A stretch of DNA of 64,000 nucleotides from Chiridota heheva (lineage: Eukaryota > Echinodermata > Holothuroidea > Apodida > Chiridotidae). The position numbers were made by a program, and so were the translations under genes. Location of the stretch: NCBI GenBank assembly GCA_020152595.1, contig JAIGNY010002156.1:547501-611500 (forward strand). Reading direction: 5' to 3'. Under the pieces are notes generated by a model that was not told where the DNA came from, made no database searches, and worked only from the letters and a program-made list of their open reading frames with translations. This document shows, piece after piece, positions 50,201 through 56,200 of this stretch. How positions within the stretch are numbered: the stretch's first letter is position 1; each line of letters starts with the position of its first letter.

Positions 50201-53200
50201 ATTGTCATCATCACCAGGAAATTCAGCCAACAGCAGTTCCAATTCTTCCCCTGACAAACCTGCTCAAAAGGCTACCACAAAACCTCCCAATGTAGTCACC
50301 TTCGAGGACAAGAAGATTACAGGAACGGTTGATCCAAGTGGGGGACTTCCACCGCTTTTTACCAACACACCGCCAGTAACAGAGATAGAGGGGAAAACCT
50401 TGTCTTTAAGCAGTGAAGCTCATGAATTGATTAACTCACTTACCAAGGTACTGATGAAGGACAGGGAGGAAAATATAACTGCAGCTGACTCGACCACAAG
50501 TAACATGTGAGTGTATAATTTTTCTTCCAGGTTTTACACTTTCTCTACCCTGACTTGAAGTGAATCTTTATGCTGCTTTGTGTATTCCATAATGTGTCTT
50601 TTCTTCATTTGAATATATAGAGAATGTTGGGAAAACTTCCATGTTATAGGAGATTGGCAAAAGTTAACCCAAGTAGTCAAAATTCCTGGTTACGTTTTAA
50701 TCGTAACACAGAGCCAAATCTTTGGGGAATTAACATGCTGTGCAAGTAAAAAAAGAATCGTCTAAGTCTAGACAGTTTTCTGAACCTCAGTCTTTACATT
50801 TGTGTTACGAAAAGCCATTGAGTGCCACTTGCAAAGAAAATACCCCAACAGCAATAACTGAAGAGTTGAACACCCAGTGAAAAAGTCCCATTGATGCTGA
50901 TTTTGTCAAACCCTGGTAAGGGATTAATACATGAAAAAAGATGGAATCATTTTTTTTGATTGATTGATTTGATGGGAAAAGAGGGCAAATACATGGATAC
51001 AAGATGCATATTTACTGAATTAAATATTTTGGTTGTACTATTTCAGAGTGCCACCACAAGAACCCTTTGGAGAGGATCCATTACAAAGGCTCCGAAGAGA
51101 ACTTAATGAAAAGAACAGGGAAAAAGGTCTTGCATTGAAGAGGGCTCATTCCCCAGAACCGCCACCCCCGCCACCCGACAAGAAGAGTCGAGTTGAACCT
51201 GATGATTCCCAAGTACCACCACCTCCACCCCCAAGGGTGACCATTCAAGGTAAAGAAACAAGTGTTTTTAAGTTGAATTGTATGATGACTTACTATGTTG
51301 TGCTAGCCTATGTTCAGCTATTCACATGGAAGTAGTTGTCCATTAGCAGTTTCCCTGAAGTATGAATTTACTATTTAGTAGAGTCAAAATATGAAAAAAA
51401 GTGACCTTACCCCAAAAAAATTGCAAGAAAAGTTTTTTTGGCAGTTTGATCAAGTATGGGGTCTGGAGAAGAACATATTAAAAGTTGGCATAGATCGGAT
51501 CTCCGGAAAGGGTTTAAATATGACGTCATAAAAAAGATGGCCGACGATATAAGAAATCGCTAGAAACTAGGCATAAGTCTATTATTTAATAGTTTCTAAT
51601 CATTTTAATAATGAAAATTATCACTAAAACTAAATACCTTGGCACCAGCATAATTTTTGAAACTTTTCTTGGCATCATCAATAACGTCAGGACGTTATCC
51701 GTGACGTCAGGACGTGACATGTGACGTCATGACGTGACATGTGACGTCATGACGTGATCTGTTACGTCAGAATGTGGTTTATTTTTAATATGTGTGTTCC
51801 AGTCCAGATTTGATGGCGCAGGGAGACATTTGATGATTTGAAAGAATTTCAAGTCATTTCTGAAGGTGGGACCTAAATTGATAGCAGTGATAGCTCCGTT
51901 ACAACTGGGGCTGGGGGTTCAAATGCACCATCACTTTCAATCAAGGTTTTTGATAGACAGTCTGTCTGCCATGGGTTATTGCTCCTCATATAGTGAAGTG
52001 CAAAGGTTTGAGGAAAACGCCGCTTCTTTAGTGGCTCCTGATGTTTTAGGTGAGGACAAAGATATGCATGATATGATGCTTTATTTGCCACGGATAACGT
52101 TGACCACAACATAGTGACCCTGCATGGAAAGGGAACATTTCATGGTATGGGGATGGTAGCAGCCATCACACCAGGCACATGAACCAGTCACACTATTCCG
52201 AGGAGAAAGATGTCTGACTTGAAAATAGTTGATCAGACGAAGATTGAGATCAAGGATTACCTGCTTCCCAAAGAACACTCTTCGTAGCATTAAGTTCACG
52301 CCTCTGTCAAATGTTGTTGATCATAAGATTGATGTATTGTAGGAGATGTCTTCCGCTTCAAGCAAACACTACCAAATTGGCAAGAAGTGCTGCACCTGCT
52401 ACACAAGGACTGTCTCCACCCTGGACAATCATCAGTATTGTTCCTACCAATGATTGATATGAACCCTGGAGATAAGACATGTATCATCTCTACACTCGAC
52501 TATATATGTGCTCTTGCTTCCAGGCACAGTGTCCCACCAATTGTAACCTTTGATCAGCCATTCTTTTCGAAAGCTTTTGAGATTATACATGAAGTTCAAG
52601 ATGGTAGTCCACTCAGAGATGTTATTTTGTTATTGGGGAGCTTTCATACTTTCATGACTTTCATGAATTTGTTGGGGGCCATAGGAACACTCATGGATGG
52701 AAGTGGACTAAGGGAAATCCTGGAGACAGTGTATGGTAAAAACGCTGTAACACATATGATGAGTGGCAAAGCTGTGCATTGTGCATTTCGTGGACATCTT
52801 CTTGTTGAGCAGTGTCTCACGCATCAGATAGTGACCAAGTAATTGTAGCCGATCCAAGTTTTGAAGATCTACTTAAAGAGCTGGAGAGATTGTATACTCA
52901 AAAAGGAGACTGGTAAAATAAGTTTAGATGCACTGCTGAAAGCAGACTGCATGGAAAGAATTTCCATATCCATACTCTCACTTCAAGAGAGTGTGAATTA
53001 TCTAACAACTCAAAAACAAGCAAATTGTGGATTAACTATCAACAAATGTTGGGAGTTGCACAGGAGCTTATCAAGGCTGATCGCACAGGGTCATGGCAAA
53101 TGCATCTCCATGCTATATATGACTGTTTGCCAATATTTGCTACTGCTGGACACCCTAACTATCTGAAGTCTGCTTATCTTTATTTACAGAAGATGAGGGA

Positions 53201-56200
53201 TCTTGGAAAGTGGAAAGTCCCCAGAGATTCAGAAATTCAAAAATGGATTCCATATTATTCGACGCAGCAAAAAATACTGGGCTGGCCTTAATCCTGACTT
53301 GGTGATCGAGCAGACACTAATGCGGTCGCTTAAAAGCACCAGTGGGCTAACAAAAGGAAGTGGCATGTCAGACCATCAGAAAGCCGTTTGGACAATGTCT
53401 GCCCGTGTATCTTCAGCCTACAACTACGCCATGCATAAATTCTGTCAGACATCATATGCAACAAGTGAACAGCTCAAGGAGGCATCTGCTTCTCGTATGG
53501 ACATGGATATGAAAGACTTGGACAAACTTGCGACGAAACTGGAACACTATTCTCCATTTTCCAATGAGGCAACCCTGCGCAACATTATCACAGGGATAAA
53601 TGCTGATGAGGGTGTCAATGTTGAAGAACTTTTCAATGTAGGAAGAGACACAGTAAAACAAATGGAAGGACACCCAGTCTTCTCATATTCCCACAAAAAG
53701 AACACTAAAGTGAAGACATTAGCATCAGCTCAAGCTGTCAAAGTTGCAGAGGATCGAACTATTGATCCAGCTCTATTGTTTCAGAGGTTCCTTGTGGTAT
53801 CGCAGTCAGGTGACCTTTGCCTTGATAAAGTAATGCAATATGAGCTCTTCCCCTATCCACCATCCTTATTTGAAGGAAGAAATCTCTTGCGAAAACCAGA
53901 TAAAGCACATCTTCTGAAAGCTTTGAAAGACCATGGAACTTCCTTATCAGATAGTGCTGGTCTTCAGTCCATTCAAAAGACTGATCACTATGTTCTTGAC
54001 AGAGGTTCCCTCCTACATCGATTAAAATAGACCGAGGGGAGCACTTACACTTCAATTGCAGATTCGTATGCATCTTTCACATCCGAACTGTACGGTAATG
54101 CCACTGTTGTCTTTGATGGGTACAATTGAAGACCATCCACAAAAGACAACACCCACCAAAGACGAAGCCGAAGTCAGGTCACCAACAAGGTCAATATTGT
54201 GGAGTCAACCAAATTTTCTGGAAAAAAAAGAGGATTTTCTTTTAAACACAATGAATAAACAGGCCCTTATTAACCTGATGACGAAATACTTGTGCCAGAA
54301 AGGCTGCAACGTTATTCAGGCTGAGGGTGATGCTGATGTCGACATCGTAAAAGCAGCAATCACAATGGCATCCTTCAAGTCAACAACTCTCATCGGGGAA
54401 GATACAGGTCTTTTTGTTTTGCTCTTGTATCATGGAACCACGAATGACTGCAAAGACCTGTACTTTAGATCAGACAAAGGTAAACCAAATGTGTATAACA
54501 TTAAAGTTCTGAAACTGTTACTAGGGGAAGAAGTGTGCTCTGATCTGTTGCTTGCCCATGCGTTTTCCGGATGCGACACTACCTCATGAGTTTTGGGGTT
54601 AAAAGAAGTCCATCTTCAGAAAGATCATCAAGGGCGAATCTGTCTTGTGTGCTTGTTCTAAGATCTTTCGCACACCAAAGGCAAATCCAGAGACTGGAAA
54701 CCACCGGCTGCAAACAAATGCTTTCATTGTTTAATGGGACTCATTCTGACTCTCTGGCATCATTGCGCTAGAGCTTCCTTTGCAAAAACGTGGCCACAGT
54801 AAAGACTTTTGTGGCACCCGAAAGGCTGCCCCCAACAACATCAGCCACAAAACTTCACTCACGGAGGGTATATCTTCAAGTTATGGTGTGGATGTGTACG
54901 GACGGTGGCATGGATCATACAGACTGAAGCCGGTGTGTACAAGGGGGTCAATTGATTCCACTCATGATGGACAAAAGCCCTGCTCCTGAAAGTTTGTTGA
55001 AAATGATACACTGCAACTGCTCGACAGGTTGCCGCACACTCAAATGTAGCTGCAAAAAACATGGCCTTGAATGTACCCAAGCCTGTGGACCTTGTCAAGA
55101 AGACACTTGTGATAATATATCCCTCAACCCAGTATCAGATGATGATGGTAATGAAGGCTGCATATGACTGTAAAGGTAATATAGTAAGGATAACGCCAGC
55201 TGGTCAGCTGAAACACTAGAAATTACCAAACAAACCAATATGTGCACTTATGTCTTCTAATCTATAACTGCATAAGGAAAACATTAAATGTCGATATTAA
55301 TTCATTAAGTGGTTGATGATGTTAAAATCTATATTGCAATGAACACGAATAGATGACAAAAAGTTAGCCATTAAAACCACAGCTCATCCAGGGCATCACA
55401 GTGAAAGAATCATGATTTTAAGAAAAATACATGACATAATGACGTCATAGGACGTCATAGATGACGTCATAGATGTCACTATCACAGCATAACGTCACAC
55501 AGGTACATTGGTCAGATTGAAAAATTAACAATCATGTAAGATACTGATGCCTTTTACTTGATTTCACTTAAAGATGCCAGAAACCGTATGCAAATCATTG
55601 AAATTAAGCATTTTATTACATTTTGGCAGCCATTTTGTATGATGTCATATTTAGACCCTTTCCTGTGGTCAGATTTTTGCCAACTTTTAGTATGTTAATC
55701 TCCAGGTCAAATAGTACCAAAAAATGCAAAAAAACCTTTTCTTGCAAATTTTTTGGGGTTACGTGGTATATTGACTCTATACTAATTGTATATTTTTGTT
55801 AGATTTCATGATGGAATTTCTTGGTAATCTTTTAGTTGCAGATGTGCAATTTGTTCTAATATTATTAAGCTTGGGTCTTTGTTTGAAGTGTTAGTCATGG
55901 AAGGATTAACCTATTATAAGATTCTTTGTTCGTTGCTGAGGTTAAAAAAAAAATTGAGATCTTGTTTTTTTCTGCATTTTCTAATTGAATATGTGTTGAT
56001 GAAGTTCTTTTATTCATATAAGATAAAATGATCTTCAACAGGTAAGCACATAAACTTCTCTCTTGCTGAGTTTGCTTGCTTGGAGTACATTAACACTACT
56101 GACTCCACAGGAACCCAGCCAGCATTTAGAATTTAATTGTTGGCCTGTTGCCGACTTATTGGGTGTCGACTTATCAAAGCCATTGGGAAAGTTTTATTTT

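Follow-up and report, generated by a model that had tools for sequence, protein, structure and literature searches.

The window analysed here is a stretch of 64,000 nucleotides from the holothuroid Chiridota heheva (contig JAIGNY010002156.1 of assembly GCA_020152595.1; C2141:547501-611500 in assembly numbering). Within it lies a transposon copy of 4409 bp, spanning positions 51376-55784, whose ends were fixed by comparison with other copies in the genome. The copy has imperfect terminal inverted repeats (TIRs) of ~160 bp, contains the remnant of a large protein, and is flanked by a 3-bp target-site duplication (TSD), so that the layout is ATT followed by TAGTAGAGTCAA at the left end and GACTCTATACTA followed by ATT at the right. 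It belongs to a DNA transposon family of the cut-and-paste kind and is an inactive copy, shortened by an internal deletion.

The two arms can be aligned locally over element bases 34-166 and right-arm bases 26-156 (reverse complement), with 107 of 129 positions identical and 6 gap columns; the score of 127 compares with a maximum of 36 among 50 shuffles. The outermost TAGTAGAGTCAA is common to both ends, save for a 2-bp insertion at the right, where the window element terminates in CTATACTA, two bases more than the CTACTA or CCACTA of the copies that retain both ends. Because of these extra bases the automatic end finder missed the window TSD, and ATT was placed by eye. The original prediction, made from the letters of the window, had put the element at 51379-55779; the element and its paired, imperfect ends of about 160 bp are real, but those limits were off by a few bases. 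The prediction had also described a decayed protein with a terminal CXC region, and its motif parts are indeed present. They lie in different frames with stops and frameshifts, and the window copy is therefore dead. In the nuclease part the second Asp of the DTD motif is replaced by Gly (IGEDTG), and the CXC domain falls under the Pfam cut-off (E = 0.87, 10.4 bits). Pfam scans of five pieces of the remnant gave sub-threshold matches only, and Rfam gave no match within the window.

In the genome as a whole (1.10 Gb, 3744 contigs) the left arm is found at 40 places at 96-100% identity, the window itself included, 40 of 394 first-look candidates having been scored. Twenty of the 39 other places were fetched for study. 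Left arm, protein and right arm occur together in most of the 20 fetched copies (blastn), and every one of the 16 that are two-ended has an exact 3-bp TSD (TTA, ATA, TCT, TCA, GTG, AAA, TGT, CAG, TAT, CAT, ATA, TAT, CCA, CTT, TTC and CAA); the other four, L013, L016, L020 and L024, have no proper right end within the fetched stretch. The expectation that TIRs and protein would recur together elsewhere in the genome is thus borne out, and alignment of the copies defines both the ends and the TSD. When 17 flank pairs (window included) were compared across the window and the fetched loci, a paralogous empty site was found for one: the sequences on either side of L014 match, straight through the junction, a related repeat in L044, where the element is absent and GTG is single. 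For 20 copies, comprising the window and 19 others (L016 was dropped), the mean pairwise Kimura two-parameter distance is 0.045, with a range of 0.009-0.058.

The same 1277-column gap is present in 14 of these 20 aligned copies, the window among them. It deprives the window copy of ~1.28 kb, including 5' coding sequence up to about residue 374 of P0001, the relative to which all residue numbers refer, and in most deletion copies the protein matches begin at residues 370-382. Five of the 20 are full length across the region, one of them being L013, whose 3' part is missing from the fetched stretch, and L022 carries a different internal deletion; the fuller elements are ~5.6 kb long. Eleven of the deletion copies are complete at both ends, each with its own TSD. 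In the tree, whose branches are short, the full copies cluster (support 0.940) and then join L022 (0.896), apart from the deletion copies. Since the copies that share one gap are thus set apart from the full copies, it seems that one deletion product was multiplied; and since it lacks the N-terminal part of the protein, its descendants were probably mobilised in trans by full-length copies. A genome search with P0001 gave no full-length uninterrupted frame (32 of 2329 candidates scored, 54 matches listed) and, judged from the scored part, the family seems to have lost its activity here, or to be losing it.

Both ends carry subterminal TGACGTCA palindromes, a sequence that resembles a CREB/ATF site. 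Of the half-sites TGACGT and ACGTCA the window element has 12 in its first 600 bp, six in its last 600 bp and none in between, and 1.2 kb of flanks has none; across 17 copies, 0 or 1 half-site is seen in the middle of the element and 0-3 in 1.2 kb of flanks. Every one of the 17 copies examined has a TGACGTCA at 145-146 bp from its left end; 12 of them, though not the window copy, have a counterpart at 135-137 bp from the right end. Further in there is another cluster, at 326-387 bp on the left side (16 of 17) and at 316-350 bp on the right (17 of 17), counted from the respective end. The paired clusters noted in the original prediction are thereby confirmed, and their similar distances from both ends suggest that the sites may serve in recognition of the ends, or as paired regulatory sites. 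The features of the window copy are collected in Table 1.

Table 1. Features of the transposon copy, in window positions.
Feature	Position	Strand	Basis
TSD ATT, left copy	51373-51375		Register from 16/16 two-ended copies; own TSD placed by eye
Left TIR, terminus TAGTAGAGTCAA, alignable to right arm over element bases 34-166	51376-51541		Alignment
TGACGTCA palindrome within left TIR	51521-51528		Present in 17/17 copies
Left subterminal 20-bp tandem array, TGACGTCA at 51702, 51722 and 51742	51684-51770		Repeat and motif search
Decayed coding remnant (P0001 residues ~374-1458), spread over several frames and broken by multiple stops	51842-55164	+	Protein comparison
Junction of ~1.28-kb internal deletion	51877-51883		Same gap in 14/20 aligned copies
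DDD/E core remnant: DNVDHN 52093, TFDQP 52546, LVIEQ 53299 (P0001 D444, D599, E846)	52093-53313	+	Motifs, invariance, fold
FEN/XPG nuclease remnant: VLDRGS, VVFDGY, EGDADV, IGEDTG, SGCDTTS	53992-54586	+	Profile, invariance, fold, motifs
Frame with C-terminal CXC (CNCSTGC at 55012)	54928-55164	+	Motif; Pfam TCR/CXC E 0.87, below cut-off
Right subterminal repeat cluster, TGACGTCA at 55440 and 55462	55435-55475		Repeat and motif search
Right TIR, terminus CTATACTA with 2-bp insertion relative to two-ended copies	55629-55784		Alignment
TSD ATT, right copy	55785-55787		Register from other copies

When its pieces are joined, the window remnant matches 351 proteins. The best 11 relatives (among at least 120 listed) have 1349-1484 residues and are 56-61% identical, many of them on contigs of only 5-6 kb. 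Sources among the matches listed include Seison nebaliae, Xyrichtys novacula, Nymphon striatum, Coilia grayii, Porites and Mytilus; most of these proteins are nameless, hypothetical or uncharacterized, and a few are annotated as 5'-3' exonuclease or, in UniRef, as Tesmin/TSO1-like CXC. P0006, P0015 and P0070, from a seisonid rotifer, a fish and a sea spider, show 59, 60 and 54% identity, a patchy spread that could reflect horizontal transfer or contamination.

Full-length relatives represent one protein of ~1460 residues, with N-terminal Cys/His clusters, a DDD/E core, a FEN/XPG nuclease and a terminal CXC region. Alignment A1 comprises 75 near-full-length rows chosen from 120 listed, a choice that favours intact proteins and that omitted other long rows without a fixed rule. 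Seven acids in the core part (D444, D447, D599, D842, E846, D915 and E1024) and seven in the nuclease (D1075, D1114, D1184, D1186, D1208, D1210 and D1265) are invariant in all 75 chosen rows. The EXO1 profile is matched by A1, with no match from profile A3; six of the seven nuclease acids fall within the profile alignment and D1075 was mapped by motif. The equivalent EXO1 residues are presumably catalytic. The model of the core has an RNase H-like fold with a helical insertion, and its best matches are the P-element, Hermes, RAG1 and Transib transposases, with moderate Z and 7-10% identity, whereas the model of the C-terminal domain matches EXO1/FEN1/XPG folds at 11-17% identity; these match lists are realignments of Foldseek-ranked chains, and "best" means best among the chains listed. 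On these models the transposase resembles an ordinary DDE enzyme of RNase H-like fold, with the FEN/XPG nuclease as a second domain. The original prediction had read the DxD and ED.D motifs that precede GCDTTS as the core of a PIN/FEN-type nuclease, in agreement with the profile match and the folds, which put all three motifs in a FEN/XPG-type domain, but its further suggestion that this nuclease is the transposase fold was set aside because the DDD/E core, with invariant acids of its own, lies upstream. That the widespread, unannotated protein is the mobilising protein of the element, as had also been proposed, is very probable, the protein being carried inside TIRs in many copies.

In Pfam the core comes closest to DUF6589 (PF20231), with 10 of 33 family members matching at E <= 0.1 (best 3.5e-6); the best member scores 26.4 bits, just under the cut-off of 27. 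DUF6589 matches occur at 27 places in this genome and at none in 14 control genomes, and among those found here are distant cousins that have nuclease-like motifs and end in a Cys-rich region. The locus L045 (the same place as L041; contig C3473) matches the family profile at 379 bits and holds a second, distant element of ~6.85 kb (L045:1689-8541), with TIRs starting TAGTCTGGTTGCAAAT and a 3-bp TSD, AAA. In L044 (1531-6852, minus strand; contig C1581) a 1774-residue open frame matches DUF6589 at 40.7 bits and has a Cys-rich end (profile E = 2.9e-6); nuclease-like motifs, SPDRD and SGCDYTS, were seen by eye, the profile match over the GCD part not being significant (E = 4.3). No convincing TIRs were found in 8.7 kb of L044, which could be a short-ended element or else a domesticated gene, and its nearest named relatives among the matches listed are from Holothuria. 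P0225 and P0208, relatives of the L044 core, unite DUF6589 and an OTU protease or GDSL lipase domain in a single chain, and these are possibly further accessory enzymes of the clan, or gene-model fusions. In P0205, another DUF6589 cousin, the CXC domain passes the Pfam cut-off with 25 bits. Searches for relatives in viral and prokaryote contigs gave 46 and 18 pattern matches, none of which was confirmed.

Elsewhere in the window, exon-like pieces at 35419, 50103 and 51024-51249 (plus strand) include a SET-domain-like fragment and a second short peptide, both resembling the KMT2E/SETD5 family, and the transposon may lie within an intron of such a gene. ARAGORN calls a tRNA-Cys at 2262-2336, within 2070-2336 on the minus strand. 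Because 2070-2320 and 2210-2336 are 90% and 87% like a flank of copy L027, this is probably a short repeat of tRNA origin and not a genuine tRNA gene. Tandem arrays lie at 41540-42351 (28-bp unit, 29.0 copies), 56406-56688 (17-bp unit, 16.9 copies) and 59447-59880 (29-bp unit, 15.0 copies).

How might a transposase and a flap nuclease act together? The Cys/His clusters, the CXC region and the TGACGTCA sites would provide recognition of the element ends, and the DDD/E core would excise the element and join it to a target cut with a 3-bp stagger. The hAT, RAG and Transib enzymes are known to make hairpins, and since hairpin makers are among the nearest folds of the core, there may be a substrate for a flap or hairpin nuclease; the FEN/XPG domain could then remove or trim flapped or hairpinned ends in excision or integration intermediates. 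Copies that lack the N-terminal part would probably have drawn on the protein of full-length copies.

To which group does the family belong? Kojima (2020) and Kapitonov and Jurka (2010) are said to have described an AcademX nuclease of XPG type. Open PMC papers on Academ and XPG nuclease, or on Tesmin and transposase, include, among those listed, none that treats such an element in its title or the start of its abstract; a search for Academ transposon, TIR and TSD gave none, and papers on DDE transposase or zinc finger transposons gave none with XPG among the matches listed. An excerpt of PMC10045372 gives a TSD of 3-4 bp for AcademX and 9-10 bp for AcademH and relates these to nuclease and helicase, and one of PMC3627910 mentions a RecQ helicase in Academ. 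Because a DDD/E transposase, a nuclease, a 3-bp TSD and TIRs all agree with that partial description of AcademX (PMC10045372), we assign the element to the AcademX lineage of the Academ superfamily with a probability of roughly 85%, an assignment made on these shared features. The claim that the group is unnamed is, on the excerpt cited (PMC10045372), probably not supported. A link to AcademH through DUF6589 was considered and is not shown: the Pfam annotation of 59 L044-core homologues contains no helicase, and the main text of a fungal transposable-element paper that names AcademH contains neither DUF6589 nor PF20231.

Other explanations must be weighed against this assignment. Most of the listed relatives lack an informative name, as might be expected of a host gene caught by chance between repeats, but TIRs, protein and 3-bp TSDs are common to 16 copies at different places and the distant cousin at L045 likewise lies between TIRs, so that we give this idea almost no credence. 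It is also very improbable that the FEN/PIN domain is itself the transposase, with a new fold. A FEN/XPG domain does exist, with seven acids that do not vary among the 75 chosen rows, yet the upstream core has its own invariant acids and a model whose best matches, at moderate Z, are the P element, Hermes, RAG1 and Transib, and DDE strand transfer typically leaves short TSDs of constant length.

A more serious competitor is a separate, unnamed DDD/E superfamily that acquired its FEN/XPG nuclease independently and merely resembles AcademX. In its favour, the comparison with Academ is one of features, the Pfam family nearest to the core has no assigned function, and neither DUF6589 nor GCDTTS was found in open PMC papers. 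We nevertheless regard it as unlikely, given that TSD length, nuclease and DDD/E core concur with AcademX as far as the excerpt describes it (PMC10045372).

The finding gives a likely job to a very large and mostly unnamed protein family of invertebrates and fish that is often annotated as genes. What is new is the link of the "Tesmin/TSO1-like CXC" and DUF6589 proteins to this transposase, together with exact ends, a TSD and mutable acids for an enzyme that unites transposase and flap nuclease. We suggest, quite tentatively, that the "uncharacterized", "Tesmin/TSO1-like CXC" and DUF6589 animal proteins belong to a single transposase superfamily, whose RNase H-fold DDD/E core and FEN/XPG flap nuclease would act as one fused machine, the nuclease setting the 3-bp duplication, and whose branches (the window family, the L045 type, the L044 types and the OTU protease and GDSL lipase fusions) extend beyond the named Academ lineages. 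It can be tested whether the FEN/XPG domain shapes TSD length, 3 bp here as against 9-10 bp in the helicase-bearing lineage.

Among known systems, AcademX, so far as the source describes it, shares with the window family the DDD/E transposase, a nuclease in the same element, TIRs and a 3-bp TSD (PMC10045372). AcademH would belong to the same superfamily if the assignment holds, but the same excerpt gives it a 9-10 bp TSD and a helicase (PMC10045372), whereas the TSD here is 3 bp and no helicase is found among the 12 Pfam families matched by the 33 members (E <= 0.1). Pfam DUF6589 overlaps the family core, with the best member under the cut-off. The P element, hAT (Hermes), RAG1 and Transib transposases have a predicted likeness to the DDD/E core, with its helical insertion, but to our knowledge they contain no FEN/XPG domain. 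Their TSDs are 8 bp for the P element and hAT and 5 bp for RAG1/Transib, compared with 3 bp here despite the similar core fold. Human EXO1, FEN1, XPG and GEN1 share the fold and the acidic set of the C-terminal nuclease domain, from which they differ in sequence (11-17% identity) and in that the family described here joins the nuclease to a transposase core and a CXC region.

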